A program made the position numbers and the translations under genes. Positions 15,289-51,601 of a stretch of 64,000 nt of DNA are shown piece by piece. Location of the stretch: positions 1-64,000 of the forward strand of contig JAETSX010000049.1 in the NCBI GenBank assembly GCA_021769425.1, read 5' to 3'. Each line of letters starts with the position of its first letter. Position 1 is the stretch's first letter. The notes below the pieces were generated by a model, which was not told the DNA's origin, made no database searches, and was given only the letters and a program-made list of their open reading frames with translations. The DNA is from Eubacterium sp. (GTDB lineage Bacteria > Bacillota > Clostridia > Lachnospirales > Lachnospiraceae).

Positions 15289-15671
15289 GTTCTTGTAATC
15301 TCACAAACTGTAAATCCTAAATTATTCTTCAAATAAGCCAAAATATTGGCAACGGCAGACTGAACATTAGAAATCCTTCCCGTAAAAATCAGCGTTCCGC
15401 TGAAACGGTCGATAAATCCAATCTCAATCGGGGCAGTTTTCATTGCAATATCGCCGGCGATGACTGATATCTCAGAGGGACACATACTTAAAATTCCAAT
15501 TGCTGACTGTTTATAATCTAATTCCGGGTTCAAACCCAGCTTTTGATAGATAATCTCACCAGGACTGGCAATAATATGTGCCAACGTGACCTGTTTTCCA
15601 GGAACCGTCTCCTGAATGATACGCATCTTGCCTTCTGCAGACGCACCAATATTCAAAAGATTCATATCCAT
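15285..15671 (-). CDS. pduU: PduU/EutS-type circularly permuted BMC shell protein
   Basis: 128 residues forming one permuted BMC domain. The typical PduU/EutS segments are QETVPGKQVTLAHIIASP near the start, then SAIGILSMCPSEISVIAGDIAMK and DRFSGTLIFTGRISNVQSA. PduU-type hexamers carry a beta-barrel cap and sit in the shell. I chose the ATG at 15671 (MDMNLL): GGAG is 10 nt upstream, though a TTG two codons earlier is closer to it. The gene is 24 bp from pduT and overlaps pduV. Confidence 0.9.
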   Translation of the reverse strand: MDMNLLNIGASAEGKMRIIQETVPGKQVTLAHIIASPGEIIYQKLGLNPELDYKQSAIGILSMCPSEISVIAGDIAMKTAPIEIGFIDRFSGTLIFTGRISNVQSAVANILAYLKNNLGFTVCEITRT

Positions 15672-15695
15672 TGCCAATTCACTCCTTTAGCTGCA

Positions 15696-16244
15696 TCAAA
15701 CCAATTTTTCAAGCAAGCCTTTATGCGGCGACGGAATTACGCAGCTGCTGGTAATCTCTCCGGTATCCGTCAGCTGGGTCATACAGGAATTTAAGGCTGA
15801 TTTTACAGCTGACACTTCACCTGTAAAAATAATGTATCCTTTTCCTCCCAGCCCCCGAGCCACCCGGACTTCCATAAGGGTAATATTGGACGCTTTTGCA
15901 GCAATATCTGCGGCCCGTACCGCAGTCAGCGCCGACATAGTTTCCAGCATACCCAGGGCAGTTACATGTTCCACATCCGCTGTACCTACCAGAGCCGACG
16001 GCACAGATGCATGGACATTATTGATAATATGATGGCAGATCAGGAAAGTTCCCGCAACCAGCCTGCCTCTTTCCATGGAACTTTTCACTGCCCCTACCTG
16101 CCCGCTGACAATAATGATATATTTGCCGGGACAAATAGCAGTAGCCACCAACAGCTCCACATCCGCAGCTTTCAGCATTTCATCTGCAGACTGCACGCCT
16201 GCGGGAATACTTTTCAGCTCTAACAATCCAATCGACTTTCCCAT
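15696..16244 (-). CDS. pduT: PduT-type tandem BMC shell protein with Fe-S cysteine
   Basis: 182 residues with two BMC domains (about 3-85 and 95-175). With the start at 16244 (AGGA 7 nt upstream), the cysteine in ATAICPGKY is residue 38, the position that in Salmonella PduT coordinates a [4Fe-4S] cluster in the trimer pore. It is expected to carry electrons across the shell to PduS, encoded immediately upstream, for B12 reduction. The alternative ATG two codons earlier would leave only 1 nt after the ribosome site. Confidence 0.92.
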   Translation of the reverse strand: MGKSIGLLELKSIPAGVQSADEMLKAADVELLVATAICPGKYIIIVSGQVGAVKSSMERGRLVAGTFLICHHIINNVHASVPSALVGTADVEHVTALGMLETMSALTAVRAADIAAKASNITLMEVRVARGLGGKGYIIFTGEVSAVKSALNSCMTQLTDTGEITSSCVIPSPHKGLLEKLV

Positions 16245-16265
16245 ACGCATATCCTTTCTTACTAA

Positions 16266-17591: not shown

Positions 17592-17607
17592 AGGAGCACC
17601 TCCCTAA

Positions 17608-19023: not shown

Positions 19024-19035
19024 TGCTTTCCCTCC

Positions 19036-20019
19036 TTAAATAGACATCGCATAACGTGCAATCTCCATATCCTGTTCTACCGTTCCGCCGGATATGCCAA
19101 CGCCTCCTACGATCTGGCCGTCAGCCACGTAAGGAAAACCGCCTCCGAACAGGATAATTTTTCCTGGTGCGGAATTTTCAATCCCATAAAGAGGACCGTC
19201 CGGTTTTGCCGCCTGGCCCAGCTCATGGGTCGGCATATGAAACGCATTGGCAGTATACGCTTTGCCTGCCGATACTTCTACGCTTCCAGGAAGCGCACCT
19301 TCCATACGCTCAAGCAAAAGCAGGTTTCCTCCGCCGTCAACAGCAGAAAAGACCACCGGAACCCCAAGCTCCCGTGATTTTTCCTTGGCCCTCTCTGCCA
19401 TACGCTCGAGTACCTCCAAGGAAATAGGAGGAAGGCCTTCCTTGTGTCCTGCCAGCGCTTCTTTTACCATTTCCGTTACTTTCTCCCGCATCTGATCCTT
19501 GGCTACTGTCTCTTCCTGAAGACGGGCCATAGCGTAAATGGCGTCGGATAAACGATTGACGTAACGCATTAATACTTCCCGCACGGCAGAATCACTTGCC
19601 AATTCCACCATACGCCGTTCTGCACGCCGCACAATTGTCCGGGCCACATGGAGAGCAGATGACGCCGAATCCACGCCGGGAATGACAAAGTGGGTCATTT
19701 TCCCGGTTGTCTCCGTACATGTATCCACCACATGTTCCAAAAAAGCCACATCTTCTTCAGAAATCAGATTTTTCAGCCTGGAAGCCCCGTCTTCATCACT
19801 GGCTAATTCTGCTCCCAAAGAAAACAGCCTTCCCTGAATTGTGTGAATTGTGGTCCGGATATATTCCTGGCATGTATTAGAATAGGCCAGACCCAGCATG
19901 GAGTTTGCTTCGTCGATGGTGCCATAGCATTCTACCTGAAGATCCGATTTGCTGACCCTCGATCCTCCTACCAGACTGGTCTGACCCTTATCGCCGGTTT
20001 TTGTATACAAATTTGCCAT
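19036..20019 (-). CDS. pduO: PduO: ATP:cob(I)alamin adenosyltransferase fused to a haem-binding-type (GlcG/HbpS) domain
   Basis: 327 residues. Residues 1-185 are the PduO-type adenosyltransferase: YTKTGDKGQTSLVGG at the start binds ATP, and RTIVRRAERRMVEL and RYVNRLSDAIYAMARL are family helices. Residues about 190-327 are the GlcG/HbpS-like domain (FSAVDGGGNLLLLERM, GGFPYVADGQIVGGVGISG), the same two-domain layout as Salmonella PduO. It makes adenosylcobalamin for PduCDE from PduS-reduced B12. ATG at 20019 overlaps the pduN stop as TGATG. Confidence 0.93.
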   Translation of the reverse strand: MANLYTKTGDKGQTSLVGGSRVSKSDLQVECYGTIDEANSMLGLAYSNTCQEYIRTTIHTIQGRLFSLGAELASDEDGASRLKNLISEEDVAFLEHVVDTCTETTGKMTHFVIPGVDSASSALHVARTIVRRAERRMVELASDSAVREVLMRYVNRLSDAIYAMARLQEETVAKDQMREKVTEMVKEALAGHKEGLPPISLEVLERMAERAKEKSRELGVPVVFSAVDGGGNLLLLERMEGALPGSVEVSAGKAYTANAFHMPTHELGQAAKPDGPLYGIENSAPGKIILFGGGFPYVADGQIVGGVGISGGTVEQDMEIARYAMSI

Positions 20020-20285
20020 CAACTCACCTCCACAGAGTCTACGATGCCCACGATAGACGTATCCACTGGAGCGGATCCATCGCCAAATACATAACGGGCG
20101 GAACTGCCCTTACAAACAATTACAATTTCACCGGTACCAGCCCCTACAGAATCCACAGCAATCTCAGTTGAACCTTCCCGCTCCAGACGTTCGGTCAGTT
20201 TCTCGACCATCAGCAGCTTCATGCCAACCAGATTCTCGTTTTTACTGGTAGAAACTACGGTTCCAATCACTCTTCCTAGATACAT
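20019..20285 (-). CDS. pduN: PduN: EutN/CcmL-type pentameric vertex protein
   Basis: 88 residues beginning MYLGRVIGTVVSTSKNENL, a typical CcmL/EutN fold with VDSVGAGTGEIVIVCKGSSA. These pentamers cap the twelve shell vertices and are needed for closed compartments. The start at 20285 is supported by GAGGCAGGTGGA just upstream; longer in-frame extensions overlap the previous gene without a ribosome site. It overlaps pduO by one base. Confidence 0.92.
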   Translation of the reverse strand: MYLGRVIGTVVSTSKNENLVGMKLLMVEKLTERLEREGSTEIAVDSVGAGTGEIVIVCKGSSARYVFGDGSAPVDTSIVGIVDSVEVS

Positions 20286-20298
20286 TCTTCCACCTGCC

Positions 20299-21168
20299 TC
20301 ATGATTCAATCTCAATCCGGATATCCCGTCTGCGGGCTTCGTCAGATACCAGCTGGGTGATAATTGTCTGTTTTGGAACAACAATTACAGCATGATCCGG
20401 ATAAGCCTTGATATGCTTTCCGCTAAACACACGTCCTTCCAGCTTCACCCGGTATTTTCCGGCATCTGTTTTCAATTCCGCCCTGCCTGCTGACTGTGTG
20501 TCCGGTTCCTTCCCGGCGCCGCTGTGCACATTCTGTTCCGGTTTTCCAAAAACAGATGCGCCTCCAAAGCTCATAATAGCCTTCTGGGCTGTTTTTCTAA
20601 GCCCGTCCGAAGTTGTCAGATATGCACCAAAGTCCTTCAGGGCGTCCTTATTCTCCCGAAGCTTATTTTTCAAAGCTTCTGTCATATGAAATCCCCGCCG
20701 GATACGTTCCGGATTGTCCGGACAGCAGCCGTCCACAGCCGCAATCACATTTTTTCCGCGCATCAGTCCATCCAGGATAATCGCAGCGGCCGGAGTGTCT
20801 GCCATGCATGCAGCCACATGAGCCGCGGTATTCACCGTCAAAGCAGGAATCAGAATCGTGTCATACCGGGCAGTCAGAACTTCCGGGGAAGCCCCGGGAG
20901 TTTCCACCCAGAATTCTTCCGGTTCCAGGGCGGAACGAATTGCCGGCACATCCAATATCTCAGCAGCGCTTCTGGTCAGCAGCACCCGGTAAGTAAATCC
21001 ATCTTCCTGGCGCAGCATCCGCAGGCACTCCAATCCAGGTTCTATGCCCATATTCGAGCCGGTATAGACTACCAGCGCCTGTTTCTGGCGTTCTAAAAGC
21101 TTCTGCACCACCCGTTCCGCAAGCACCTGTGTAATAATACCATGGACATATTGTTCCTGCTCAGTCAA
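20299..21168 (-). CDS. pduM: flavoprotein-domain protein with PduM-like C-terminus
   Basis: About 289 residues in two parts. Residues about 20-190 look like a flavoprotein (HFCD) fold: ALVVYTGSNMGIEPGLECLRML, a YDTILIPALTVNTAAHVA segment and RGKNVIAAVDG. Residues about 230-289 (YRVKLEGRVFSGKHIKAYPDHAVIVVPKQTIITQLVSDEARRRDIRIEIES region) resemble the end of Salmonella PduM, which also has a hydrophobic-Lys-xx-IxTxLAxDxA pattern. PduM is a structural protein of unclear role, and its usual position between pduL and pduN fits. The start is probably TTG at 21168 (AGGGGGT 8 nt upstream); a GTG three codons earlier abuts the ribosome site. Confidence 0.72.
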   Translation of the reverse strand: MTEQEQYVHGIITQVLAERVVQKLLERQKQALVVYTGSNMGIEPGLECLRMLRQEDGFTYRVLLTRSAAEILDVPAIRSALEPEEFWVETPGASPEVLTARYDTILIPALTVNTAAHVAACMADTPAAAIILDGLMRGKNVIAAVDGCCPDNPERIRRGFHMTEALKNKLRENKDALKDFGAYLTTSDGLRKTAQKAIMSFGGASVFGKPEQNVHSGAGKEPDTQSAGRAELKTDAGKYRVKLEGRVFSGKHIKAYPDHAVIVVPKQTIITQLVSDEARRRDIRIEIES

Positions 21169-21181
21169 TGTCCTCACCCCC

Positions 21182-22011
21182 TTATTCGGTACAATTCATG
21201 GCAATGCCCAAAGGTGTCACAAGCAGCGGTGCCGCAGGCTTCACCACAGGGATGCCGATATATTTTTCAAACACTTCCTCAAATTGAGTAAAGCAGCATG
21301 CGCCGCCCACTACATAGATCGTATCCACAGGATATTTTTCTAAACTCCGCTTCACGATCGCAGCCATTTTTTCCACCACCGGCTTTATTACAGGAAATAC
21401 GTTTGCTTCCTGAGCCGCATCGCGTTTCATCAGCTCAGCCTCCTGAGTGCTGCATCCATAAAAACCTGCCAGCACCAGGGTCATATGCGTTCCGCCTGTA
21501 GGCTCGTCACTGGTAAAAATGACTTTTCCATTTTCCAGAATACTGATTCCGGTCGTTCCTCCGCCTACATCCACCACTGCGCCGTCTGTAATGCCTAAGA
21601 CAGCAGCAGCAGCAGTAGGCTCATCTACAATTTCAGTCAGCCGGAATCCAGCTGACTCTACCACATTGCCGATGGCTTTAACATTGCCGGAAAGAATACC
21701 TGGCGGAATTGCGCAGGCTCCTGCTTCCAGCGTCTCACCCAACAGTTCCTCCAGCTGGCCTTTCAGTTTTGTTACAGCCTGTACAGCCCCTATATAATCC
21801 ACTACAATGCCATCCCGAACTACAGTCGATGGAAAAGTAGCGCCGGCCACCGGCCGATTCTTCTCATCCACCACTGCCAGGACAATATTCGCAGTGCCCA
21901 GATCCACGCCGGTACGCAAAGTGCCCTTCCAATCCTTTTTTTCGCCGTTTTCTATCAGGCGCTCAAACTCCAGCAGCGTTTCGTTGCACTGCGTTATATC
22001 GAAAGCCATAT
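21182..22011 (-). CDS. eutJ: EutJ-family actin/Hsp70-like ATPase
   Basis: 276 residues of the EutJ type: GVDLGTANIVLAVVD phosphate loop 1 (about 34-48), VVDVGGGTTGISIL phosphate loop 2 (about 165-178), IVDEPTAAAAVLG between them, and the adenosine motif VVGGACCFTQFEEV near 240. EutJ proteins are chaperone-like and usually belong to ethanolamine compartments; Salmonella pdu has none, so this operon mixes the two. Start at 22011 (MAFDITQC) from GGAGGG 7 nt upstream. 18 bp separate it from pduL. Confidence 0.87.
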
Positions 22012-22029
22012 GCACTCCCTCCACTGTCC

Positions 22030-22680
22030 TTAATCCAGAATGATATATGCCCGGTCACCGTTTTTCACACCCAGGGCATTGGCTTCTTCTACGTCAATGT
22101 GCATCTCGGGGGCAAATTTATCGGATACACGCAGCAGCACATTATTCAGCACTGCACCGCGCAGACCGCCGATTTCCACCCGGACAATCTGTTTGTCATG
22201 TACGCCCATACGCTCCGCAGTTGCAGGATCAAGATGGATATGACGAAGAGCGGCAATCACGCCTCTCTTCATCTCCACTTCCCCATTGGGACCAATCACT
22301 CTAACGCCCGGCGTCTCCTCCAGCTTACCGGATTCCCGGACAGGAGGATGTATGCCAAGCGCAAAGCCGTCTCCGATGGAAACCTCCACCTGGGATTCAT
22401 CACGCAGAGGGCCAAGCACACGCATACGCTTCAGTTCACCCTTCGGACCCTGGCTGGTTACTGTCTCAGCAGCGGCATACTGACCTGGCTGGCCTAACTC
22501 TTTTACCCGTGTCAGCTCGCTGCCCACCCCAAACAAAGTATCCATGTCTGCCCGATTCAGATGAATATGGCGGTTAGAAACGCCAATAGGAACGGAACGC
22601 TCCCATTTGCACAGTTCCTCCACCACTAATTTTACTACAAGGCGCAGGAATTCTTCCTGTGTGTATTGGCTTTTCTCCAC
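22030..22680 (-). CDS. pduL: PduL phosphotransacylase
   Basis: 216 residues. It converts propionyl-CoA and phosphate to propionyl-phosphate and CoA inside the compartment, recycling CoA for PduP. The two beta-barrel PTAC domains show the zinc-ligand motifs SNRHIHLN (about 36-43) and RHIHLDP (about 146-152) plus PEMHIDVEEANA. Residues 1-22 (EKSQYTQEEFLRLVVKLVVE) form an amphipathic encapsulation helix. It starts with GTG, preceded by GGAGGG. No propionate kinase gene follows in the window. Confidence 0.94.
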   Translation of the reverse strand: MEKSQYTQEEFLRLVVKLVVEELCKWERSVPIGVSNRHIHLNRADMDTLFGVGSELTRVKELGQPGQYAAAETVTSQGPKGELKRMRVLGPLRDESQVEVSIGDGFALGIHPPVRESGKLEETPGVRVIGPNGEVEMKRGVIAALRHIHLDPATAERMGVHDKQIVRVEIGGLRGAVLNNVLLRVSDKFAPEMHIDVEEANALGVKNGDRAYIILD

Positions 22681-22695
22681 GGTTTATCCCTCCTC

Positions 22696-22971
22696 TCAAA
22701 GATCCTTCGGCAGGATTCTCTCCACATCTGTATGCGGACGCGGAATAACGTGCTGTGATACAATCTCGCCTACTTTTTCAGCGGCAGCGGCTCCTGCATC
22801 TACAGACGCTTTGACTGCTCCTACATCACCGCGAACCATTACGGTCACCAGACCTGAGCCAATCTTTTCATAACCAATCAGCGTAACATTTGCTGATTTT
22901 GTCATGGCATCAGCTGCTTCAATGGCTCCCACAAGACCTTTTGTCTCAATCATGCCAAGAGCTTCACCCAT
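22696..22971 (-). CDS. pduJ: PduJ/PduA-type hexameric BMC shell protein
   Basis: 91 residues, a single BMC domain: [21 protein letters not shown] at the start and [20 protein letters not shown], with the pore region GSGL expected in PduA/PduJ. Very close to the protein at 29841-30119, with which it shares most residues. The start at 22971 has GGAGG 8 nt upstream; an upstream in-frame TTG overlaps that site. Probably a major shell facet protein. Confidence 0.93.
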
Positions 22972-23002
22972 AACGATAACCTCCAATCTATTTTAATCTG
23001 TC

Positions 23003-23830
23003 TTATTCCTTATCTGTATTCTCCTGCTTATTGCCGCGCTTTCCTCCTTTGCGTCCCTTTGCGGCCGATGCCTTTTTTGCCGGTTTATGTGCTGCAGGTT
23101 CCGGAACCTCCTCCGGGGAATCTTCTCCTTCTTCCTCTTCGGGATGTCCTGTTTCCTGCCCCTTTTCCGCCTGCGTTTCTGCACCGTCCATTTTTTCCTC
23201 TTGGGATTCTTTCGCTGCAAGAGCTTTCTCTTCTGCTGCCGCGGAATCTTCTGGTTTGGATTCTTCCGCCGCAGCTTCCGGTTCAGGAGCTTTCTCTTTC
23301 TCCGCCTGCGCTTCTACACTGTCCGAAACTTCTTCCCCAATATTTTCTGCAAACATTTCTGGTTCAGGAGCCTTCTCCTTTTCCTGTTCCTCTGTCCTGT
23401 CTGCCTGTTCCGGAACTGGCTGCGCTTCTTCCTTCTGCTCTGTCTCCTGTCCTATTGGCAGTTTTTCTTCCTCTTTCACCTTCTTGGAACCCTTTGGCGG
23501 TGTGGGAGGCTTTGGCATATCCGGTCCCTTTGTCGGCTGTGCATATCCGACAGTATCCGGACTGTACACCAGCATGTCAAGTCCGGCAGAGGGACGGGGA
23601 ATCACACGCGTACTCACTACCTGGTTCACCTTGGCGGCTGCCATCCGGGCTGCATCCACGGCAGCTTTGACTGCCCCGACATCACCCTGAACCTTAATGG
23701 TCGTCCAGCCTCCGCCTTTTGTCAGCTCATAACCGATCAGCTCTACATTGGCCGACTTCACTGCTGCGTCTGCCGCTTCAATGCCGGCAGCCAACCCCTG
23801 CGTCTCTATGAGCCCTAAACTTTTCTTCAT
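23003..23830 (-). CDS. pduK: BMC shell protein with a long acidic, low-complexity tail (PduK-like position)
   Basis: 275 residues. Residues 1-88 are a normal single BMC domain ([40 protein letters not shown]). Residues about 90-275 are a disordered Glu/Ala/Pro/Lys tail with repeats of EKEKAPEPE, ending in a basic stretch (KKASAAKGRKGGKRGNK). PduK and EutK also carry C-terminal extensions, but no Fe-S cysteines and no helix-turn-helix are visible here. It lies between pduH and pduJ. The tail may face the lumen or cytosol and bind cargo, nucleic acid or neighbouring compartments; that is speculation. Confidence 0.85.
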   Translation of the reverse strand: MKKSLGLIETQGLAAGIEAADAAVKSANVELIGYELTKGGGWTTIKVQGDVGAVKAAVDAARMAAAKVNQVVSTRVIPRPSAGLDMLVYSPDTVGYAQPTKGPDMPKPPTPPKGSKKVKEEEKLPIGQETEQKEEAQPVPEQADRTEEQEKEKAPEPEMFAENIGEEVSDSVEAQAEKEKAPEPEAAAEESKPEDSAAAEEKALAAKESQEEKMDGAETQAEKGQETGHPEEEEGEDSPEEVPEPAAHKPAKKASAAKGRKGGKRGNKQENTDKE

Positions 23831-23834
23831 GCCC

Positions 23835-24197
23835 TCACCTCCCTTCCAAAGGCTTTAGCGGCAGCTTCTTCACCAACCGCGCCGCATTTGCCCCCAGAAT
23901 GCGCACCTGTTCTGCAGACCGGGTCGGAATCCGATACAGGGGATGCTCAAATTCCAGCTTGGAAATATGCAAAATTGCTTCCTGTCTATCCATTCCGACA
24001 CCCACTCCCAAACGGGAAGCCTGTGCACCTTCCCATGCCAGCGTCAGAGCATCCTCATCCGTCTTCGTCCAAGTCTCGCAGGGAATCCCTTCTTCCTCCA
24101 GTCCGTATAACAGCTGCCAGAAAATATATTCTGGAACATCCGGGCTGCACAGCACATGGACTGTGGGCTTTGTCATTGCGATTTGTGAAGCATTCAT
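23835..24197 (-). CDS. pduH: diol dehydratase reactivase small subunit PduH
   Basis: 120 residues with the family pattern TVHVLCSPDVP near the start, GIPCETW, SRLGVGVGMDRQEAILH and the tail RILGANAARLVKKLP. It pairs with PduG to remove damaged cobalamin from the dehydratase. The start lies one base after the pduG stop; RBS GGGGGAG overlaps the end of pduG. Confidence 0.92.
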   Translation of the reverse strand: MNASQIAMTKPTVHVLCSPDVPEYIFWQLLYGLEEEGIPCETWTKTDEDALTLAWEGAQASRLGVGVGMDRQEAILHISKLEFEHPLYRIPTRSAEQVRILGANAARLVKKLPLKPLEGR

Positions 24198-24198
24198 A

Positions 24199-26019
24199 TC
24201 ATCTCCCCCTTTCCGCCAGGGAAAGCACCAGCCCTGTTGCTACTGCGTTGCGGGGGCCTTCTGTTCCGCGGATATTTCCGCGGCCTGCCACAACCTTATA
24301 CTGTGACAGTGCATCCGTAACCATCTGCGGCACTTCAAAATCCAAAGCAGAACCGCCTACCAGCACAACAAACTGAATGTCCCGGACATTGCCGGTAGGG
24401 CTGACTCTTGCCAGTGCCCGCAAAGCGTTTGTCACAAATACTTTCTGTTTTGCCTGACGCCGGATCAGACGGATTTTTTCCATAGACCAGTCGCCTTCCA
24501 GCGGAATCATTTCACCGTCTTTCAAAATTACTGTCTTAGCAAAAATATTCGGACTCAACGGTTCTGTGAAAAATTCCACTGTTCCGTTCTCATGTCGAAT
24601 ATGGAAAAAACTTTCCACCTTTGCCAGTGGATATTTCTTTACATCTTCTGCGATATCAAAGCTGTCTAAACCCATTTCTGACTGAATCAGCAGCGTTACC
24701 ATATTACCCGCGCCTGCCAGATGGATGGAATGGATTTCTCCTTCCTGGTTAATAATTGACGCGTCAGTAGAACCAGCGCCCATATCCAGAATAGCCAGAG
24801 GCTTATTGGTGCCCGGCGTTGTCAAGGCTCCACGAATAGCCATATCGGCCTCTACGCCTCCGACCCGAACCGGAATGCCAATCTGCTCTGAAAATTCTCG
24901 GGCAATCGCCTCCATCTGAAGCCGATCCGCCTTAACCATAGCAGCAATGCCTACCGCATTTTCCTGTGAAAATTCATTCGCCAGACCACCCTGGACTTTC
25001 TGGGGAGTAAATGTATCCACAGCCAGCAAATCCTGGATATGAATATCCTTCGGATGTTGTTTTGTCAGGTTCGCCATAACCTGGCGGACCTTCTCCAACA
25101 TGCCGCCTGCGTTAGTCCCCGGCTCTCCCCGGACATCCTCCAAAACGGGAAGGGATTCCACAGCCTGCATGATTTTTTCACCGCCTGCATCCACATCTAC
25201 TTTTACTGTACGGTTCTGCCCATAGAATTCAATGAGACCTGCAGGAATTTTCCGCTCCTTGACATCTCCTGCAGGAGTCTTAATCACCACGGCAGAACGG
25301 TTGCCGATCAATGCACGCGCAATCGGAACCACCTGCTGTGTTTCTTCCGAAGATAATCCAAAAAGCGTTGCAATCCCGTATGGATTGGAGAGTACCTCCA
25401 CTACGCCGCCCACACCGGCAACTTCCACTGCAGACCGCATACCCAGGGGAACCTTATTCACCAAAGCCACTTCATCTACAATGGGAATCTTATGATGCAG
25501 ACGATTGTGAATCAGTACGCCGTCATCCCGCTGGACAATCGCTGCGGTTACCTGCCGCGTCCCCATAGAACTTTCATTGATAAGCCTTGCGGCATCCTCA
25601 AAGTCCACGCTGGCAGGAACCACTGCAATATAATCTTTCCCCCCTGCCGCTTCGGCAAGCTGCGTAACAAGGATTGTCTCTCCTACGCCAACGCCCATGC
25701 CGCCGGGCGTAGATGGATTATGTCCAATCATGGTAGATTCTGTTATAATCGTCTCCGTAATGGTTTCCATAGCCACATCTCCGATAACCGGAGCCGCTTC
25801 ATTCAAACATACCTGTGAAAGCTCCGTTATCTCAATGCCCACTTTTTCCATCGCGCTGGTCAGGGAATGAACGACGCCGTTGATGTTCTGCCGGGTTCCC
25901 TTGATACCTGTCGTTGGTACTGTGCCGCTGGCCAGAAATTCTACTGAATTTCCGTCAATCTTTGCCAGAGCTGTTTCTGTTGTCGCATTTCCAATATCAA
26001 TGCCTGCAACAATTTTCAT
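24199..26019 (-). CDS. pduG: diol dehydratase reactivase large subunit PduG
   Basis: 606 residues, the full length of the DdrA/GdrA family. It is an actin-like ATPase: GIDIGNATTETALA at residues 5-18 and DMGAGSTDASII (about 413-424) are the nucleotide-site loops, and the C-terminal VLVGGSALDFEVPQMV completes the fold. With PduH it exchanges inactive cobalamin for adenosylcobalamin in PduCDE. Start ATG preceded by CAGGAGG. Confidence 0.95.
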   Translation of the reverse strand: MKIVAGIDIGNATTETALAKIDGNSVEFLASGTVPTTGIKGTRQNINGVVHSLTSAMEKVGIEITELSQVCLNEAAPVIGDVAMETITETIITESTMIGHNPSTPGGMGVGVGETILVTQLAEAAGGKDYIAVVPASVDFEDAARLINESSMGTRQVTAAIVQRDDGVLIHNRLHHKIPIVDEVALVNKVPLGMRSAVEVAGVGGVVEVLSNPYGIATLFGLSSEETQQVVPIARALIGNRSAVVIKTPAGDVKERKIPAGLIEFYGQNRTVKVDVDAGGEKIMQAVESLPVLEDVRGEPGTNAGGMLEKVRQVMANLTKQHPKDIHIQDLLAVDTFTPQKVQGGLANEFSQENAVGIAAMVKADRLQMEAIAREFSEQIGIPVRVGGVEADMAIRGALTTPGTNKPLAILDMGAGSTDASIINQEGEIHSIHLAGAGNMVTLLIQSEMGLDSFDIAEDVKKYPLAKVESFFHIRHENGTVEFFTEPLSPNIFAKTVILKDGEMIPLEGDWSMEKIRLIRRQAKQKVFVTNALRALARVSPTGNVRDIQFVVLVGGSALDFEVPQMVTDALSQYKVVAGRGNIRGTEGPRNAVATGLVLSLAERGR

Positions 26020-26046
26020 AGTGGAACCTCCTGACTTTGCAGAATC

Positions 26047-26556
26047 TTAGAATTTCTTCAGCCTGCCGCGCTGTTCATAAACATCAGCAGCTTCGCGAAC
26101 GAGAGCAGCCGCTGTCTTCGCGCCGTATTTCTGATCCAGTTCATTGGCAATGTCAATCAAATCCTGTTTGCTGGAACGGTACGGACGCAATGCATTATAA
26201 ATCTCCAACAGACGGTCATCCGGTACAGCAATCAGTTCAGCCGCACGGCGCAGATTTCCTGCAAATGCCTCACGGTTTACAGATTCTGCTACCTGAGCCT
26301 GCATTTCCAGAGTATCAGGAGAAATACGCATATCATCTGCTGTAATATCGCCGGAAATCACTTTCTCATAGCTTAAGGAAGTAAAAGGCTTGCCTGTAGG
26401 TGTTTTGATTTTATCGGCCATATTCTCAGCCAGAGGGTAATTCTCAGATGTAACCTTGCCGCCAACAGAGGCAGCAGGAGCTGACGCGGATCCGCCGTTG
26501 TTCATGGCCTGCATAACCTGTTCTACAATCTGTTTCATTAAAAGTTCCTGATCCAT
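26047..26556 (-). CDS. pduE: B12-dependent diol dehydratase small subunit PduE
   Basis: 169 residues. The N-terminal helix MDQELLMKQIVEQVMQAM followed by a Gly/Ala/Ser linker is consistent with an encapsulation-type extension. The body has the family signatures NYPLAENMADKIKTPTGK, DDMRISPDTLEMQAQVAE and NALRPYRSSKQDLIDIANEL. The start at 26556 is fixed by AAAGGAGG 7 nt upstream. Forms the (CDE)2 enzyme. Confidence 0.94.
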   Translation of the reverse strand: MDQELLMKQIVEQVMQAMNNGGSASAPAASVGGKVTSENYPLAENMADKIKTPTGKPFTSLSYEKVISGDITADDMRISPDTLEMQAQVAESVNREAFAGNLRRAAELIAVPDDRLLEIYNALRPYRSSKQDLIDIANELDQKYGAKTAAALVREAADVYEQRGRLKKF

Positions 26557-26570
26557 GATTATGCCTCCTT

Positions 26571-27248
26571 TCACTGGAATGAAACTGCGACAGCCTGAGG
26601 TCGCTTATCGTTATCAACATGTTCGGTTTCCTTAATGTGCAGCAATGCTGCAATTGCCTGATAGGTAGGACGCGCCATCTGGTCATTGCGAACCGGCACC
26701 GGCGTGGGAGCCTCGCCTTTCGCATACTTGGCAGCGTTCTTTCCAATCTGACGGAATGTATCCATTTCAATCAAAGGAGCCTGTGAAAACAGTTCCAGAT
26801 TGCTAAGAGGCGGAAGATCTTTCTGGTGGATTACCGTAGTACCCTTAGACTGAATTCCGATGCCGATGCCTGAACCTGAATATTCAGCAGCATCGTGAGC
26901 GATAAAGGAAACGTCAGAGGTACGGTATACACGTATCACACGCCACTTCAATCCTTCTTCCTCAATACCTGCAATAATCTCACGCAATACCTTATCGTGA
27001 GGCTGATGAATGATTGTCTCGGTCTGATATATGCCAAAAGCCGGCGCCAAACCGATTACAACTTCATCGGGAGCAACTCCCTTAGGTGCATCCCCCTGCT
27101 CGGTCAAGGTCATCTTGCCGGCTGCAGGCAGGGTTGCAGGTGCAGGTGCAGCTGCTGCAGGCGCGGATGCCGCAGGAGCTGGCTGACTTGTCATTTCTTT
27201 AATTACTTCTGCAATAACGCTGCGCAGTGTTTTTTCATCAAAAGTCAT
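26571..27248 (-). CDS. pduD: B12-dependent diol dehydratase medium subunit PduD
   Basis: 225 residues. Residues 1-18 ([18 protein letters not shown]) are the amphipathic encapsulation helix, joined by an Ala/Pro-rich linker (about 20-48) to the catalytic-subunit body ([40 protein letters not shown]), which binds part of the cobalamin. Start at 27248 from GGAGG 10 nt upstream; the in-frame GTG three codons earlier is too close to it. Confidence 0.94.
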
Positions 27249-27266
27249 ATCTGGCACACCTCCTTC

Positions 27267-28928
27267 TTAAATGTCTTCCGGCCGAATTGCATTGGGGATA
27301 TCGCTGAGCTGTTTCCATCTCTCTTCGCTGATCTGGTAGCCAGTCATCGGTCCGTGGTAATCATTCGGCGCATTGACAGCAGACAATACATGGAAATTGT
27401 CTCCAAAAATAGAAGCTGTATGGAGATAGTCACCTGCCACTTTCTGGCGAAGCATGTTGTAGATATTGTTTGCCACATCCGGGAATCCGGCTTTATCCAG
27501 AGCTTTTACAAAATCTACGCCTGTTACATTGCGTGCCATCATATCTTCAATTGCCTTCAAGTCTTCGTTAACGTTACGATCCGGCATATCATTAGAGCCG
27601 TTTGCATAAGTAGCTGCTTCCACTTCTGCATCTGTAATTGGAGGCAGACCCAATTCACGGAACAATCCCTGAAGCGCACGCGCTGCCTTATTGCGGGCTT
27701 TCAGAACATCCTCTTCACGTACCGGCTGCAGACCGCCGTCAATCTTCATATCGCGCTGGATAATATTCCAGTCGTCGTAATCTTCTGCATCCCAGTTGGA
27801 ACCTGCGAACATATTATCATAGTTCGGCGTAGCGGAATAACCGGAGCATATGTAGTCAGTTCCAGAGAAGAACTGCGGAACGCTGCGGGCTACACGGCGC
27901 AAATCGGAATGAGTAAAGGTCTGGTCATTGGAGGTGGTGGATTCCAAATCAAGCAGCATAGCAATCAAGTTCTCAGCAGCGATTGCACGGATACCGCCTG
28001 GTACGCCGGCCGGAACGCCTACACATGATACAGAACCGTTCTGTGTTCCCTGTACGCCTGCGCCCTTGGTGATTGCAAGGCAGCGAGCTTCCAGATACAG
28101 CATGGATTTGCCTTCTGCATAACCCATCTGAACTTCAGAACCTGTACCGGAGGTGAAACGCATCTTCAATCCGCGGCTTGCATAGCAGCTTGCCAGGAAT
28201 GCTTTTGAATAAGGAGTATCATCGCCGTCCATAAATACCGGCTCTGTACCATATACGGAAATTGTCTCAGCATAAGTGGTGAAACCGCGCATACCAAGCA
28301 TCAATTCTGTAGCTTCTTCCAAAGCGCACTGAGTCATAACTCCGGGACGTCCTACCTGAGCGCCGACCATAATAGCAATTGCATTAAAAGGCGCATAACG
28401 GGCAATACCAACCGTTGTCTCCATCTCTGCAAAACCGCGTACGCCGGCTTCAGCAGCGTCTGCAGCAATCTGAACAGGATTATCCTTTACGTTGGTAACA
28501 TGACACTGATTTGCAGGCATCAGGCGGGCACGCATCTTTGACATACCCATCATGATTTCTACAATTGTCATCTTTCCTACAACCTCTGTTAACTTAGCCG
28601 GGGTAATGGAAAGGGTAATATCCAGAATTTCTTTACGGGAAACATTGATATCCACAATCTTGCGGGCGATTTCCAAAGAATCCAGGGCCATAGCCTTCTC
28701 TGCATTCTCCAGGCGGATCGCATGATCTGCAATAAAAGTATCCAACATATCAAAATCAGCGCGGCACTTGCCGTCTAATTCTGTTACGCGGCCATTTTCA
28801 ATCTTGATGCTTGGGGTGGGATCGAAAGGGCTGTTCATGGCAATCAGACCAACTTCCGGCCACTCTTTGACGTAACCGTCCTGATTTACCGGGCGGTTCG
28901 CCAATACTTCAAAACGTTTAGATTTCAT
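27267..28928 (-). CDS. pduC: B12-dependent diol dehydratase large subunit PduC
   Basis: 553 residues, almost exactly the usual length. The catalytic TIM-barrel subunit dehydrates 1,2-propanediol to propionaldehyde with adenosylcobalamin. Familiar segments are MKSKRFEVLANRPVNQDG at the start, MSKMRARLMPANQCHVTN, YAETISVYGTEP, FTSGTGSEVQMGY and the C-terminal NDYHGPMTGYQIS. Glycerol dehydratases are close relatives, so propanediol is inferred mainly from the pduL/pduP/pduO context. RBS AAGGAG. Cytoplasmic, in the compartment lumen. Confidence 0.95.
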   Translation of the reverse strand: MKSKRFEVLANRPVNQDGYVKEWPEVGLIAMNSPFDPTPSIKIENGRVTELDGKCRADFDMLDTFIADHAIRLENAEKAMALDSLEIARKIVDINVSRKEILDITLSITPAKLTEVVGKMTIVEIMMGMSKMRARLMPANQCHVTNVKDNPVQIAADAAEAGVRGFAEMETTVGIARYAPFNAIAIMVGAQVGRPGVMTQCALEEATELMLGMRGFTTYAETISVYGTEPVFMDGDDTPYSKAFLASCYASRGLKMRFTSGTGSEVQMGYAEGKSMLYLEARCLAITKGAGVQGTQNGSVSCVGVPAGVPGGIRAIAAENLIAMLLDLESTTSNDQTFTHSDLRRVARSVPQFFSGTDYICSGYSATPNYDNMFAGSNWDAEDYDDWNIIQRDMKIDGGLQPVREEDVLKARNKAARALQGLFRELGLPPITDAEVEAATYANGSNDMPDRNVNEDLKAIEDMMARNVTGVDFVKALDKAGFPDVANNIYNMLRQKVAGDYLHTASIFGDNFHVLSAVNAPNDYHGPMTGYQISEERWKQLSDIPNAIRPEDI

Positions 28929-28949
28929 AGCTTACAGCTCCTTCCTGAA

Positions 28950-29759
28950 TTAAAGAATGTAAGGGGTAGTTGTTGATTTCAGTTCCTCATCCGGCGCCAA
29001 AGTCTTCAATAACTGAAGTCCAACGTCACGCGCTGCGATAATTGCCTGTTTTACTGCACCGGAATCTCCGGAGAAGAAATAATTCACTTCGTTAGAGAAG
29101 CTGGTTCCGCCGTTTCCTGGCGTTGCAAGAGTCACGCCATCAATGGTGGCAGCCTTGGAAGCAGCATCTGCTAAAACTACGCCGATACCAGCCGGAGCGC
29201 CTACTGTGATGCCGAAAGCCTTGCCGAGAGGCGCACCCCAAACTTTATTTAATACATAAGAAGCGCGGGCGCTGTACTGGAATTCCAGATGTCCTGCACT
29301 GTTGCCGTATACGTCGCCCATGGTACGAGGAATCTCACGCAGGCAAACTTCTACTGCACGGCGGGCGTCAGATACATCCTCAGCCCCGAAAATAATTAAA
29401 GAACCATGACCTGCTCCTCCTTCGGTGTCACGGGGGCACTCTACCAGAAGGCACTCACTGTTGGTTGCTTTTACTGCTTCATCCGCTGCAAAAATCTGCG
29501 GGCCTGCACCAACGCGGTCACTGATAATGCCGATTGCACGGTACTTTGGATCAATTTTAAGAGCTTCGTGAACCTGATGATCAAGGTTTGCGATAACCAG
29601 GCCAATGGTATGGCCCATTGTTGTGCCTACATACTCTGTCAGGTTGCATGCGGGCGAAGCTGCTGCAGCTGGTTCTTTGCAGCATTCTTCTGCAGGAGAA
29701 GCAATGGCTCCAAGCCTTTTCATAACTTCTTCCATGATGTTGTTATTCAATTCATCCAT
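28950..29759 (-). CDS. pduB: PduB tandem-BMC shell protein
   Basis: 269 residues with two BMC domains (about 45-145 and 155-260). VGTTMGHTIGLVIANLD and FGAEDVSDARRAVEV mark the first; FGITVGAPAGIGVVLADAAS and FSGDSGAVKQAIIAARD the second. PduB trimers form shell facets, and in Salmonella the PduB N-terminus links shell to cargo. Here the N-terminus has a similar helix (LNNNIMEEVMKRLGAI) followed by a Cys/Ala/Pro linker. Start at 29759 (MDELNN) from GGAGGG 7 nt upstream. Confidence 0.94.
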   Translation of the reverse strand: MDELNNNIMEEVMKRLGAIASPAEECCKEPAAAASPACNLTEYVGTTMGHTIGLVIANLDHQVHEALKIDPKYRAIGIISDRVGAGPQIFAADEAVKATNSECLLVECPRDTEGGAGHGSLIIFGAEDVSDARRAVEVCLREIPRTMGDVYGNSAGHLEFQYSARASYVLNKVWGAPLGKAFGITVGAPAGIGVVLADAASKAATIDGVTLATPGNGGTSFSNEVNYFFSGDSGAVKQAIIAARDVGLQLLKTLAPDEELKSTTTPYIL

Positions 29760-29840
29760 GTGTTTTCCCTCCAAAATAATATTTTTGCTATTTCAGCGTT
29801 CCCACAAAAACAGTGGGGTTACTCATAATGAATCCCGTAA

Positions 29841-30119
29841 TTATTCCATATGCGGAAGGATCTTCTCCACATCTGTATGCGGTCTCGGGATTACGTGGCA
29901 GGAAACAACTGTTCCAACTTTTTCAGCGGCAATAGATCCGGCATCAACGGATGCTTTTACTGCGCCTACGTCGCCGCGTACCATAACGGTAACCAAACCG
30001 GAACCGATCTTTTCATATCCGACCAGGGCAACGTTTGCAGATTTAACCATAGCATCGGCAGCTTCAATAGCGCCTACCAGACCCTTTGTCTCTACCATAC
30101 CAAGGGCTTCTCTTTGCAT
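29841..30119 (-). CDS. pduA: PduA-type hexameric BMC shell protein
   Basis: 92 residues, one BMC domain: [41 protein letters not shown] and the conserved [15 protein letters not shown] end. First gene of the operon, as in Salmonella. GSGL lines the pore through which propanediol enters in PduA. The ATG at 30119 has AAGGAGG 6 nt upstream; the in-frame extension further upstream lacks a ribosome site. Confidence 0.95.
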
Positions 30120-30206
30120 TTTGATTCCTCCTTGTGATATACTGCGGCGCATCCGTCAGTTTGCTGCGGCATGCACGCGCAATTGGTTAATTTGTTGCTA
30201 TTTCCT

Positions 30207-30260
30207 ATTATACTAAAAACAGACTTGTACTTTCTTGTCGTTGTCAGAGACTTTTTTGTC
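30207..30260 (-). promoter_or_regulatory. Pdu operon promoter with tandem activator-type repeats
   Basis: Minus strand TATAAT (30207-30212) lies about 90 bp before pduA and has no good -35. Instead an 11-bp direct repeat, GACAAGAAAGT (30229-30239) and GACAAAAAAGT (30250-30260), occurs with a 21-bp period (two helical turns). The nearer copy covers the -35 position. This is the layout expected for an AraC-type activator that helps polymerase at a weak -35. The regulator encoded at 31514-32572 is the natural candidate. No cobalamin riboswitch was seen here. Confidence 0.6.
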
Positions 30261-30437: not shown

Positions 30438-31441
30438 TTAACCCGTAATCTGTTTCAGAAGAGCCGCCATTTCTTCTTCACTGGCTCTGCGGGGGTTAGT
30501 GGCATATGTGGCGTCTGCAAGAGCCGCTGCCACAAGCTCTTTCTGAAGCCCCCTGACTTCTGCCAAATCCGCACCCCATTCCTTGAGCGTGGCAGGAATC
30601 TTTAACGAGCGGTTCAAACGTTCTATCTCACGAATCAGATTGGACACTCCAAGCCGGACATTGGCAGCCGGAAAGTCCATAATTTTTGCGATCCTCTGAT
30701 ACTTTCTTGCTGCCACAGAGTATTCTCCGCCCACCACATGGGACAAGTCCAGGAGGCATTCTGCATCTTCGTCCGTGCAAGCAAATCCCCGCCGTCTTTA
30801 TAGGCCAAAGGTAAAAACCGGAACACCAGGGAAATGGCCTTCTCACACATTGCATCAGAAAAATCATTGGCATTGGTCGATACATAAGCTTCCAGGGCAT
30901 GGGTGAGCACATCCATACCGGCATCCGCTGTAACAGAGGCCGGAGCACTGGCCGTAAGATAAGGATCTAAAATTGCCACCGGCGGGCGCAGCGCCTGACT
31001 GTCCAAGGGATACTTGACCCCTCTGGCGCTGTCAGTAATCACAGCATAGTCTGTAACTTCAGAACCGGTGCCGCTGGTGGTAGGCACGGCAAAACATTCC
31101 ATCTTGTCTGTCTCAATCTGAAGAACTTTCTTGGCAATGGCACGGATAGCCTTAGCCGCATCTATTGTGGAGCCGCCGCCCACGGCAATCACAGTCTCCG
31201 CCTGACATTCCTCAAAAGCCTTCACGCCGGCAGCCACCACCTCAATGGGCGGATCCGGCACCACGCCGTCAAATACGGTAACTTCACATCTGGTCAAATA
31301 AGAAACCACTCTCTCTATTGCCCCAATCTGCACCATAAAACGATCTGTAACAATAAGAACTCTCCGTTCTTCCACCCGGCGCAGACGTTCCAGCGCGCCC
31401 TCCCCAAAAAATATCCTGGTACTGAAACTAAATTCCTGCAT
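30438..31441 (-). pseudogene. pduQ: pduQ-type iron alcohol dehydrogenase, internal deletion
   Basis: Residues 1-231 (31441 to about 30750) are a good group III alcohol dehydrogenase: AVGGGSTIDAAKAI (NAD site), PTTSGTGSEVTDYAVI, and the first two iron ligands D and H in DAGMDVLTHALEAY. The reading then leaves frame. A second frame (about 30750 to 30438) resumes with YSVAARKYQRIAKIMDF and runs to the normal C-terminus. About 40-50 residues between are missing, the stretch that in this family holds the last two iron ligands (SMAH and HIPHG histidines). No active enzyme is possible. Start supported by GGAGG at 7 nt spacing. Confidence 0.88.
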
Positions 31442-31513
31442 CACAACCTCCATTCTGCTGCCAACGCCTGCAGACACAGTTTTACCTTCTCCTAAATTGT
31501 CTGAGCTGCACTT

Positions 31514-32572
31514 TCAGACAGTCTTCCCACCGCAATATATCTCCCGGTACTCTGTGGGCGTCATCCCCACTTTGCGTTTAAAAGCCTTGCTGAAATAATT
31601 GGCCTCGCTGTAAGAAAGCTCATAGGCAATGCTGATGACAGGCATGTCCGTGTCCACAAGCATTTCCCGAGCAATCTCAATTTTACAATCTGTCACATAC
31701 GTAATGAAATTGACCCCGGCAATTTTCTTAAAAACTCTGCTGAAATAATAAGAACTCATATTCGCATATTCCGCGGCCTGATCCAGGCTGATGCCGCTCT
31801 TAATGTTGCGGTCGATATAATTAAGCATCCTCTGCTCGCTGCCGACCTGATAACTGGAATCCTCAGCAAACACATCAAAAATAACGTTAAGCATCTTTTT
31901 CAGTACAAGATACGCGTCATATTTCTGCGTCTGCTGATCATACCGAAGCTTAAACTTCTCCATAATACCCGCCAGCTTCATCTGGACCGCAGGCCCCAGG
32001 GGATCTCCCAACTGCACAAGCCCCTCGGCAAACCGAAGCGCCTGGAACCGGATTACACTTTTATTATGGATTTCTTTATGAAGAGAATCAAGGTAATCTT
32101 TTGCAACATCTGTGCACTTTTTATAACAGAAGGCACGCATCTGCTCAGCCAGAAGCTTCAAATACTTCTCCCTTCGCTGCTGTTCCCTGTCATCCGACAC
32201 AAGAGAGGAATCCCGCTTCAGCGCGCGGACGGCTGCCAGAAGCCATGCCGGGCGGCAGGGTTTCAGCAGGTAATCCTGCAGCCCCAGACGCCAAACATGA
32301 GGAGCAATGTCAGCGCGGACGCCTACGGAAGTAACCAGAATCGGAGTGTCCGGCGACACCTGCCTGGCATGTGCCAGCATATCACAGCGGCGCAAATCAA
32401 ATTTCGGCACATCTGCAATCAGCAAATCCACATTCCCTTCCCGCATCAGCCTTACAGCCGACTCTTCTTCCGAAGCAAGGACAATCTCCGCTGAATCCAG
32501 TCCTTCCGACAGAATACTTCTGGTAATCTCCCGCTCCAGCTGGTTTTCATTCAGTACTAAAATCTGGCCCAT
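31514..32572 (-). CDS. AraC-type response regulator, probable Pdu activator
   Basis: 352 residues. The N-terminal receiver (1-120) keeps the phospho-acceptor Asp (VDLLIADVPKFD), Thr (ILVTSVG) and Lys (YLLKPCRP), but the usual acidic pair reads NE (LVLNENQLE). Middle helices (about 130-245) connect to two AraC helix-turn-helices (about 250-350: ISLDQAAEYANMSSYYFSRVFKK and SIAYELSYSEANYFSKAFKRKVGMTPTEYR region). It is 15 bp downstream of the PocR sensor and beside the Pdu promoter, so control of pdu is inferred. RBS AAGGAGG. Confidence 0.85.
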   Translation of the reverse strand: MGQILVLNENQLEREITRSILSEGLDSAEIVLASEEESAVRLMREGNVDLLIADVPKFDLRRCDMLAHARQVSPDTPILVTSVGVRADIAPHVWRLGLQDYLLKPCRPAWLLAAVRALKRDSSLVSDDREQQRREKYLKLLAEQMRAFCYKKCTDVAKDYLDSLHKEIHNKSVIRFQALRFAEGLVQLGDPLGPAVQMKLAGIMEKFKLRYDQQTQKYDAYLVLKKMLNVIFDVFAEDSSYQVGSEQRMLNYIDRNIKSGISLDQAAEYANMSSYYFSRVFKKIAGVNFITYVTDCKIEIAREMLVDTDMPVISIAYELSYSEANYFSKAFKRKVGMTPTEYREIYCGGKTV

Positions 32573-32587
32573 ATGCTGTATACCTCC

Positions 32588-33823
32588 TTATCCTTCCTTT
32601 TTCTGCGGCAGACGGAAGCTAATCATGTATCCTGCCTTTCCATCCTTTCTGGGACTGACAGAAAGGCCGCACCTTTTTCCAAAAATCCTCTTCAGGCTCC
32701 GATCCGAGTCATGAAGGGAAAAACCTTCCTCCTGGGAAGAAGCGCCCACCTGTGCATCCATTTCCTCTAATGTGATTCCCTCATTATTGCTGACCACCTG
32801 AATAATCACATCCCCCTGGTCTCCCTCAGCAAATATTTCTATCTCACGCTTCTCTCCTGCCCCGAATCCCTGAACGGACAGTCCCACTAACGGTTCCATC
32901 ACCATATAAGGACAATTCACATCCCAGAATTCCTTCGGTACAGAAATGCTGTAATGAAGCGCATCTCCCTCCCATGCCTTCTGAATACGCAACAGGGCGC
33001 CGACATAACTCAGTTCTTCCCCCAGCGTGGAAATCTCATGATCCGACTCCGTAACGTAGCGCATAATATCTGCAAAATCATAGGCTGCAGCCTCAGTTTT
33101 CACTGCTTTTTCCTGAAAAGCAAGCTGAGAAATAACGTTCATCACAAAGAAAAAATAACGAAACCTTCCCTGCTGTTTCATATTGGCAAGTTCACGTTTT
33201 TGAAATGAAAACTCCATATTTGAGTAAGATTTCCATTCCTCCACCGGTTCCATGCCTGCCACTTCCAGATCCCGATCTGCCTGTCTGCCTGTCTGCATCA
33301 TAAATAAAATCAAATCATGCAGCAACGTTACCGCTGATTTAATCTTCTCATAGGAAACCCTCTGTGTCTCATTGTAAGCTTCCTCCAAAACCTTATCCTC
33401 GCGCCAGTTCTTCTTGACAGGCAGAATATCCTCCAGTTCCTCTTTCTCATCCCGGCTTAACCGTATCTGCCCGCCCATCAGCGAACCCATATAAATTCCA
33501 TCGTAAATCAGCGGCAGCGCAAAATCCACCAACCCTGCATGGCAGCGGTAAATATAAGGCCTGCCGGTAATTGCAGCCTGAAGGCCGCCATGGGCATCAC
33601 ACTGCTTGCACATTTCAAAAAAATCCTGATGCTTGCGCCCCATCTGGCAATAGGGGGTAAAGCCGCTGTAATGTGTGATTGGACACCCCCGATAGTCCAC
33701 TGTCACAAAAGCCAGCCCCATAGCCCTGGAACAATCATCCTGAAGCATTTGCAATAAACCAATGTCAATATAATCGGATATTTTTTTCGATACTTTCTGC
33801 GATTCTTTCACCATTAATCCCAT
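32588..33823 (-). CDS. PocR-domain sensor with degenerate (pseudo)histidine kinase
   Basis: 411 residues, no membrane helix. Residues about 15-165 form a PocR-type ligand domain (GLAFVTVDYRGCPITHYSGF, CKQCDAHGGLQAA, YRCHAGLVDFALPL, YMGSLMGGQI), a family tied to sensing of propanediol-like small molecules. Residues about 205-405 align with LytS/YesM-type kinases, but KQQGRFRYFFFVMNVIS replaces the QxQINPHFLFNxLNxI box, so the phospho-His is Arg. The N-box PLVENAIxHG reads PLVGLSVQG and the DNGxG box reads SNNEG. Phosphotransfer and ATP binding therefore look lost. A later ATG (MVKES, fourth codon) is also possible. Confidence 0.85.
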   Translation of the reverse strand: MGLMVKESQKVSKKISDYIDIGLLQMLQDDCSRAMGLAFVTVDYRGCPITHYSGFTPYCQMGRKHQDFFEMCKQCDAHGGLQAAITGRPYIYRCHAGLVDFALPLIYDGIYMGSLMGGQIRLSRDEKEELEDILPVKKNWREDKVLEEAYNETQRVSYEKIKSAVTLLHDLILFMMQTGRQADRDLEVAGMEPVEEWKSYSNMEFSFQKRELANMKQQGRFRYFFFVMNVISQLAFQEKAVKTEAAAYDFADIMRYVTESDHEISTLGEELSYVGALLRIQKAWEGDALHYSISVPKEFWDVNCPYMVMEPLVGLSVQGFGAGEKREIEIFAEGDQGDVIIQVVSNNEGITLEEMDAQVGASSQEEGFSLHDSDRSLKRIFGKRCGLSVSPRKDGKAGYMISFRLPQKKEG

Positions 33824-34333
33824 CTCCCAGTATAATCCCCACCTTCAATAGCTGCGGATTTTCCGCAAAATATTATGCCGCAGCCTGCATGAATCATTCC
33901 TAATGTTTTTATTATAACAAAAAAATCCCATCCATACAATTCTTTTTCTGGCCCCGGCATAACTTTTTGTCTTTCCTCCCAAGGGCCTTCGGAATCTTAA
34001 TCTTTTCCTGCCGGCAAATAAGAGCCTTAAAGGAAAGATGCAAAGCATTATAAAGCATGCAGCCATTTCTGTTTCCGTATGGGAACAAAACGCCGCCTGC
34101 CTGCTGCAAGTAATTATAGCAAAATATTACAGACAAATTATTATATTTTTATATTGCAGAGGAATTTTTTATCAAAAAGTAGACTGGCTGCAGAACGTAA
34201 AAAAACGCTGACATCTTCGGAAACTCTTTTAAAGATCCAAATAGAAAAACGCCGTTTCCCCGAACCCGATAAATATGGATTCTGAAAAACAGCGTATCGT
34301 ATGGTTATTTCCATATTTCAAGCAAAACTTTGC
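33824..34333. other. intergenic region upstream of the PocR sensor
   Basis: 510 bp with no supported gene. It holds the promoter listed at 33911-33939. At the far end is a 16-bp palindrome AAGCAAAACTTTGCTT (34320-34335) next to the TPM-protein stop, perhaps a weak terminator for the 34-38 kb cluster. Nothing else is recognised. Confidence 0.5.
33911..33939 (-). promoter_or_regulatory. probable promoter of the PocR sensor/regulator genes
   Basis: Minus strand TTGTAT (33934-33939), 17 bp, TATAAT (33911-33916), about 90 bp before the sensor start. The -35 is imperfect. Confidence 0.5.
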
Positions 34334-51571: not shown

Positions 51572-51601
51572 TTTGTCAGAGGAAAAGAAATGGAGGTTGT
51601 T

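Follow-up and report, generated by a model that had tools for sequence, protein, structure and literature searches.

A PocR-domain sensor kinase and its AraC-type partner regulator at a pdu locus both appear to have lost residues needed for His-Asp phosphotransfer

The closest described relatives of the system considered here are two-component pairs associated with propanediol-utilization (pdu) genes. A PocR domain has been noted on the histidine kinase of PDU1D loci (in a passage of PMC4207490), and the pdu cluster of Acetobacterium woodii is headed by Awo_c25930/Awo_c25920, whose regulator is reported, in part of PMC7593272, to bind DNA upstream of both pduA and the kinase gene. Like these systems, as those passages describe them, the locus reported here joins a two-component pair to pdu genes. 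It lies in a 64,000-nucleotide stretch of Eubacterium sp. DNA (assembly GCA_021769425.1, contig JAETSX010000049.1, positions 1 to 64,000; hereafter the window) and consists of a PocR-domain sensor of 411 amino acids (32588..33823) and a partner regulator of 352 amino acids (31514..32572), both, like all features of the locus given below, on the reverse strand. We liken the A. woodii pair to it on the published description; the A. woodii sequences were not identified in the set of loci that we surveyed. The same sensor domain and an AraC-type helix-turn-helix (HTH) also occur in Salmonella PocR, a one-component PocR-AraC regulator (NCBIfam NF047788). Here, in contrast, each of the two domains has a protein to itself, with a former kinase and a former receiver linking them, and NF047788 matches the N-terminus of the sensor and the C-terminus of the regulator separately, far below cut-off. 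Judged by their sequences, both proteins of the window and its close orthologues have lost residues required for His-Asp phosphotransfer, unlike most of the homologous pairs surveyed outside this clade; of the 48 loci there that have a regulator and whose sensor is intact, 47 have an intact receiver.

The sensor gene is an open frame from ATG to stop, identified by its Pfam domains and its orthologues. An earlier note on this DNA, made from the sequence alone, had given the frame, strand and coordinates correctly, and the three strings of residues that it quoted are all present in the protein. The PocR ligand domain (residues 17-179; 33287..33775) is recognized by PF10114 with 146 bits against a cut-off of 23.9 (E = 8e-43). 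It is followed by a LytS/YesM-type dimerization and histidine phosphotransfer (DHp) domain (PF06580, residues 211-284; 32972..33193), which scores 32.4 bits against a cut-off of 25.2, and by a HATPase-like catalytic and ATP-binding (CA) region (32591..32926), which scores 14 bits against HATPase_c, below the cut-off of 26; three intact relatives score 85-93 bits and 39-52 bits for the same two families. When the sensor is aligned with 49 intact relatives, the column of the phosphorylated histidine is occupied by Arg (R222, 33158-33160), that of the N-box Asn by Leu, and the G1 box, DxGxG, reads SNNEG, with Ser at the first Asp column and Asn at the Gly column. The alignment thus bears out what the earlier note had claimed, namely a His-to-Arg change, loss of the N-box Asn and replacement of DNGxG by SNNEG. 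It had overlooked that the G2 box is gone as well, the Gly of VGL having become the Ser of FSL next to a short lid, and that the receiver of the neighboring regulator is degenerate.

An error in a single genome is ruled out as the cause of these losses by the orthologues, of which we have 14 rows (the window and 13 other loci, 59-93% identical; L070 is the same gene as L014, and L068 and L069 differ by one sensor residue and have identical regulators). The frame is open in all 14, and the motif losses are common to them, except that L070 has His at the first site, its N and G boxes being gone; L074 has Gly there. The comparison with PocR kinases at other pdu loci that had been proposed as a check thus finds the losses shared by close orthologues. 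An alignment of 12 rows shows, in the former catalytic region, invariant residues peculiar to it, for example Y223, F224, F226, M228, N229 and F368-S369-L370. The nearest named relatives of the sensor are Lachnospiraceae, Petralouisia muris being 92% identical over the sensor; clade loci L073 and L074 are labeled Eubacterium and L075 Flavonifractor, all of them metagenome assemblies. On kinase kinship, absence of catalytic residues and conservation, the sensor is by its sequence a pseudo-histidine kinase.

The regulator, recognized by its open frame and by Pfam, comprises a receiver domain (residues 4-116; 32225..32563) and an AraC-type HTH (residues 245-345; 31538..31840). In the window the receiver has N8-E9 as its acidic pair, D54, Phe58 in place of the Pro at D+4, Arg62 in place of the Gly at D+8, S82 and K104. 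The first member of the acidic pair is Asn in all 14 clade rows and the second is Glu in 13 and Ala in one (L074); the D+4 Pro is Phe in every locus, the D+8 Gly is Arg in 10 and His in four, and the T+1 position is Val in nine, Ala in three, Ser in one and Thr in one. According to part of a 2025 review (PMC12632262), the D+4 Pro and the D+8 Gly are reduced in pseudo-receivers, and the receiver here resembles those described there in being without one active-site acid and both of these residues. A structure model of the regulator is reliable for much of the receiver and nowhere else (blocks of 80-90, residues 1-80), and this well-modeled part matches receiver domains in the PDB. The receiver fold is probably retained and the normal metal site probably not. 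Whichever kinase is considered, a degenerate receiver lowers the likelihood of ordinary phosphotransfer to the regulator.

Both ends of the pathway are conserved, and what lies between them is mostly lost. Counting as strongly conserved those columns that are identical in at least 85% of the intact relatives (49 sensors and 48 regulators), and scoring retention by strict identity, so that a Thr-to-Ser change is a loss, we find that the clade keeps 15 of 17 columns in PocR, 11 of 25 in DHp, 5 of 19 in CA, 7 of 19 in the receiver and 8 of 8 in the HTH. Selection was estimated as the ratio of nonsynonymous to synonymous change (omega, or dN/dS) under a codon model (IQ-TREE, MG+F3X4) for 13 sequences, L069 being left out. 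Omega was 0.056 for PocR, 0.082 for DHp and 0.135 for CA in the sensor, and 0.084 for the receiver, 0.129 for the middle and 0.065 for the HTH in the regulator. Pairwise NG86 medians for the sensor (0.072, 0.090 and 0.144 for PocR, DHp and CA, from the 54, 32 and 42 of 78 pairs with dS <2) agree with the codon model. Thus, selection is purifying everywhere and weakest in CA and in the middle of the regulator. Omega far below 1 in every domain, together with conservation, rules out decay of the gene. The dN/dS check suggested by the earlier note accordingly returned purifying selection throughout the sensor (0.056-0.135), and its view of selection rather than decay, like its description of an intact frame, an intact PocR domain and a place in the operon beside the response regulator, is supported by the open frame, Pfam and the gene order as well as by the shared losses in close orthologues. 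Genome-wide decay of LytS-type kinases is likewise ruled out: six PF06580 matches occur in the genome, namely the sensor, L157 with an in-frame stop, and four kinases that keep the H box NPHFL(Y/F)N.

We placed the losses on a tree of related loci. Queried with the sensor, the survey covered 29 genomes from the genus and 397 from the family; queried with an intact relative, L034, it covered 391 from the class and 398 from the phylum. The samples overlap with each other. Each survey contributed at most its best 30 loci, best matches first, and the counts below therefore lean towards close relatives of L034. The tree holds 69 rows, that is, the 73 extracted loci minus L004 (the same gene as L091), L096 (the same gene as L041), L040 (which has no kinase half) and L129 (a fragment). 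In this tree the 14 clade rows form a single group (support 100/100) whose branch is 1.25 changes per column long. Their sister group (98/95) is L034 plus L035, which are both intact and are the best matches outside the genus in the family sample (35% and 33% identical); at their loci (L134 and L135) sensor, regulator and pduQ are followed by pduB and pduC, the same position as in the clade. The earlier note had named intact orthologues in close relatives, with relaxed selection here, as evidence that would overturn it. Intact relatives in the same position are found only at this distance, 33-35%, as expected for an old loss. Its description of the losses as three independent ones holds in part: the losses are real, but they lie on one branch of the tree and so give no evidence of separate events in evolution. 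We searched 344 genomes from the order for pairs in a state between intact and degenerate. Three of these genomes besides our own matched at 1e-50, and none of the matches is an intermediate belonging to the window clade: both L149 and L150 have their motifs intact, and L151 has Tyr in place of His with an intact receiver and resembles the second lineage described next.

Outside the clade, 49 of 55 rows have intact His, Asn and G1, and six are without the His: L036, L037, L038, L039 and L041, which form one group (100/100), and L095. Read most simply, this means that the phosphorylated His has probably been lost at least twice. Cross-tabulation of the 69 rows gives 47 in which both proteins are intact, 15 in which both have lost their motifs (the 14 of the clade and L095, which is so counted although its regulator piece is truncated), five with a lost sensor and an intact receiver, one with an intact sensor and an altered receiver (L131, Glu-Asn), and one with an intact sensor in a locus without a regulator (L130). 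In the second lineage (L036-L039 and L041, with L151 placed there by resemblance) the His is replaced by Tyr, Gln or Cys and the receivers are intact, so that a rule that kinase loss is always paired with receiver loss is ruled out. This lineage sits in other microcompartment loci (L136-L140), in the neighborhoods of which, as read, pduCDE was not seen. The third His-less PocR kinase (L095; L141, 6535-8441) adjoins a regulator frame without the start of a receiver and may represent true decay. Adding L151 and L144, a second copy in G346 that keeps the His but has a broken G1 box, we conclude that kinase degeneration is recurrent in this family of PocR kinases (L144 and L149 to L151 stand outside the tree and the cross-tabulated counts).

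The setting of the pair has also been retained. Sensor, regulator, pduQ, pduA, pduB, pduC and the remaining genes of a pdu operon of the B12 type follow one another on the same strand, the downstream microcompartment operon spanning 14782..30152 (pduA, B, C, D, E, G, L, O, P and S are named by Pfam, the other genes by order and resemblance). Among the 29 genomes of the genus, pduC (at 1e-100) is present in 10, and all 10 have the sensor; the eleventh genome with a sensor is represented by an assembly that is 63% complete and in which the contig stops within pduB. In 10 of the 11 clade loci read besides the window, pduB, pduC or both follow sensor, regulator and pduQ.

Upstream of pduA we find a putative operator of two direct repeats, GACAARAAAGT, 21 bp apart (30229..30260), recognized by conservation across 11 clade loci (L069, L071 and L073 are not in this count). 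It is matched without mismatch in nine of them, with at most one mismatch in 10 and with at most three in all 11, and its spacing is constant. A TATAAT -10 element (30207..30212; TATACT in L067) stands 16 nt from it in 11 of 11 loci, with no clear -35 element before it, and much of the remaining upstream region varies. In the genome of the window (a 4.9-Mb draft, 97% complete) the operator pattern occurs once at up to two mismatches, with one other match at three, while a reversed control pattern has eight matches at up to three. On visual comparison, a two-part site resembling it and displaced by one base is present in the intact sisters L134 and L135 and absent from L142; in L149 and L150 no TATAAT was present at the place searched.

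We consider it rather likely that the two proteins are a pseudokinase and pseudo-receiver pair that abandoned His-Asp phosphotransfer, kept its job and signals by contact. The stronger proposition, that in one lineage the kinase active site, the nucleotide pocket and the receiver metal site were lost together, with the ligand and DNA-binding domains, the operon and the operator all retained and control exerted purely by protein contact, seems to us evenly balanced between true and false. We favor contact because the catalytic residues are gone from both proteins, yet both are conserved in the clade and under purifying selection, and because the pdu gene order, the input domain, the output domain and the operator are retained. 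The PocR domain of the sensor would bind the inducer, from the operon and by homology probably 1,2-propanediol or a related diol, and the former kinase half would serve as a dimeric scaffold that touches the regulator. Binding of the ligand would alter this contact and so switch the AraC-type regulator between inactive and active states, and the switched regulator would then act at the bipartite operator in front of pduA. The conformational role that the earlier note had proposed for the sensor would correspond to this direct contact. The regulators DesR and OmpR can stay active through interaction with their kinases (part of a review, PMC12471899), and the step needed may therefore already exist in ordinary systems.

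Several observations weigh against control by contact. The clade is one group, so that it represents one joint loss and not 14; L070 has His at the kinase site; and the intact receivers of the second lineage mean that kinase loss need not bring receiver loss with it. CA is the least constrained domain of the sensor (0.135 against 0.056 for PocR), and as to its fold, the AlphaFold model of the sensor has a mean pLDDT of 42 and is unusable, for which reason we base no claim about fold on it. At one locus, L071, pduB and pduC were not seen in the 3.4 kb after pduQ, and binding of the putative operator by the AraC-type regulator is suggested by position only. Finally, Asp54, Ser82, Lys104 and Tyr101 are kept in all 14 receivers, and Glu9, in 13 of 14, still supplies one acidic ligand, so that acetyl phosphate or another kinase may phosphorylate the receiver weakly.

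These kept residues also argue for the main alternative, that Asp54 is still phosphorylated by acetyl phosphate or another kinase and that the sensor is an adaptor or phosphatase tuning the regulator. Phosphatase activity may not require the missing His, which part of PMC12632262 describes as dispensable for that activity in HisKA and HisKA_3 kinases. We nevertheless regard this alternative as unlikely: throughout the clade the first acid of the pair is Asn and both the D+4 Pro and the D+8 Gly are gone, L074 has Ala as the second acid, and the T+1 residue is Val in nine of 14 rows, a residue that, in the same review's account of BldM, may hinder phosphorylation.

That the whole system is decaying, with a constitutive regulator and the sensor a remnant, strikes us as improbable. 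It would accommodate the higher omega of CA than of PocR, the broken pduQ of this genome, and the lower omega of the active relatives L076-L082 (0.02-0.03 in the sensor and 0.005-0.03 in the regulator), a difference from the clade that is only suggestive because their synonymous sites are saturated. It is hard to reconcile with a frame open in all 14 rows down to 59% identity at an omega of 0.06-0.14, and with the retention of the PocR and HTH columns and of the operator. There is similarly little chance that the sensor pairs with an active LytS-type kinase in mixed dimers and so equips that kinase with a domain that senses propanediol: the four other LytS-type kinases with intact H boxes could be partners, and mixed ChrS/HrrS dimers have been reported for an evolved pseudokinase (in part of PMC9491836), but since the receiver of the partner regulator is degenerate the phosphate output would need another target. 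Catalysis by an unusual route, through another phospho-acceptor or nucleotide site, would fit the purifying selection and the invariant residues of the former catalytic region and is most improbable with the N, G1 and G2 boxes all gone.

Signaling by contact has partial parallels. The pseudo-histidine kinases DivL, RocA and evolved ChrS, as far as the published passages describe them, are also kin of kinases that signal without working catalysis. They act on a working kinase or phosphorelay, whereas here the adjacent receiver is degenerate too. In AmiC-AmiR a ligand-binding protein controls a receiver-like regulator by direct contact; there, unlike here, the output is RNA-binding, and the sensor folds are unrelated. 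Of 20 bacterial pseudo-receivers described, 18 are orphans (part of PMC12632262), whereas the one reported here has an adjacent partner sensor that is itself a pseudokinase. Among the matches listed in a search of titles and abstract openings in the open-licence literature, none dealt with this pair or described a pseudokinase partnered by a pseudo-receiver. Part of the same review regards the way in which pseudo-receivers are switched as the central question about them still awaiting an answer. The locus brings together a pseudo-receiver, a neighboring sensor that has degenerated along with it, propanediol as a likely inducer, a candidate operator and intact relatives in the same position, and the question is therefore directly testable here. 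A further indication from the locus is that the motifs of kinase and receiver can disappear jointly while both ends of the pathway stay.

A promoter-like element, TTGTAT-17-TATAAT, lies upstream of the sensor gene (33911..33939); its -35 element is weak, and it was absent from the list of a consensus scan. It is strongly conserved in the 12 clade loci aligned, with TATAAT in 11 and TATAGT in L067. In the window pduQ (alcohol dehydrogenase; 30438..31477) is broken by a 136-bp internal deletion near 30750, which destroys the frame in comparison with L072 and is seen also against L063; in the 11 other clade loci read, pduQ is an open frame of 379-435 amino acids. The break is either a real loss in the strain or an assembly fault. 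On the forward strand, 51590-51964 carries a gene for an ABC transporter ATPase, by eye of the vitamin B12 or iron type, which has an in-frame internal deletion of 393 bp near 51627 relative to L063, with a few shared bases at the junction; its relatives adjoin the sensor gene in L063-L068, L073 and L074 (L072 was not read). A second PF06580 match, possibly a broken LytS-type kinase, lies near the window edge (63233-63442, reverse strand) and contains an in-frame stop. In the intact sister loci an unassigned gene of about 230-250 amino acids stands directly before the sensor (L134, 6380-7129; L135, 9024-9719) and gives, by eye, the impression of a corrinoid-binding protein.
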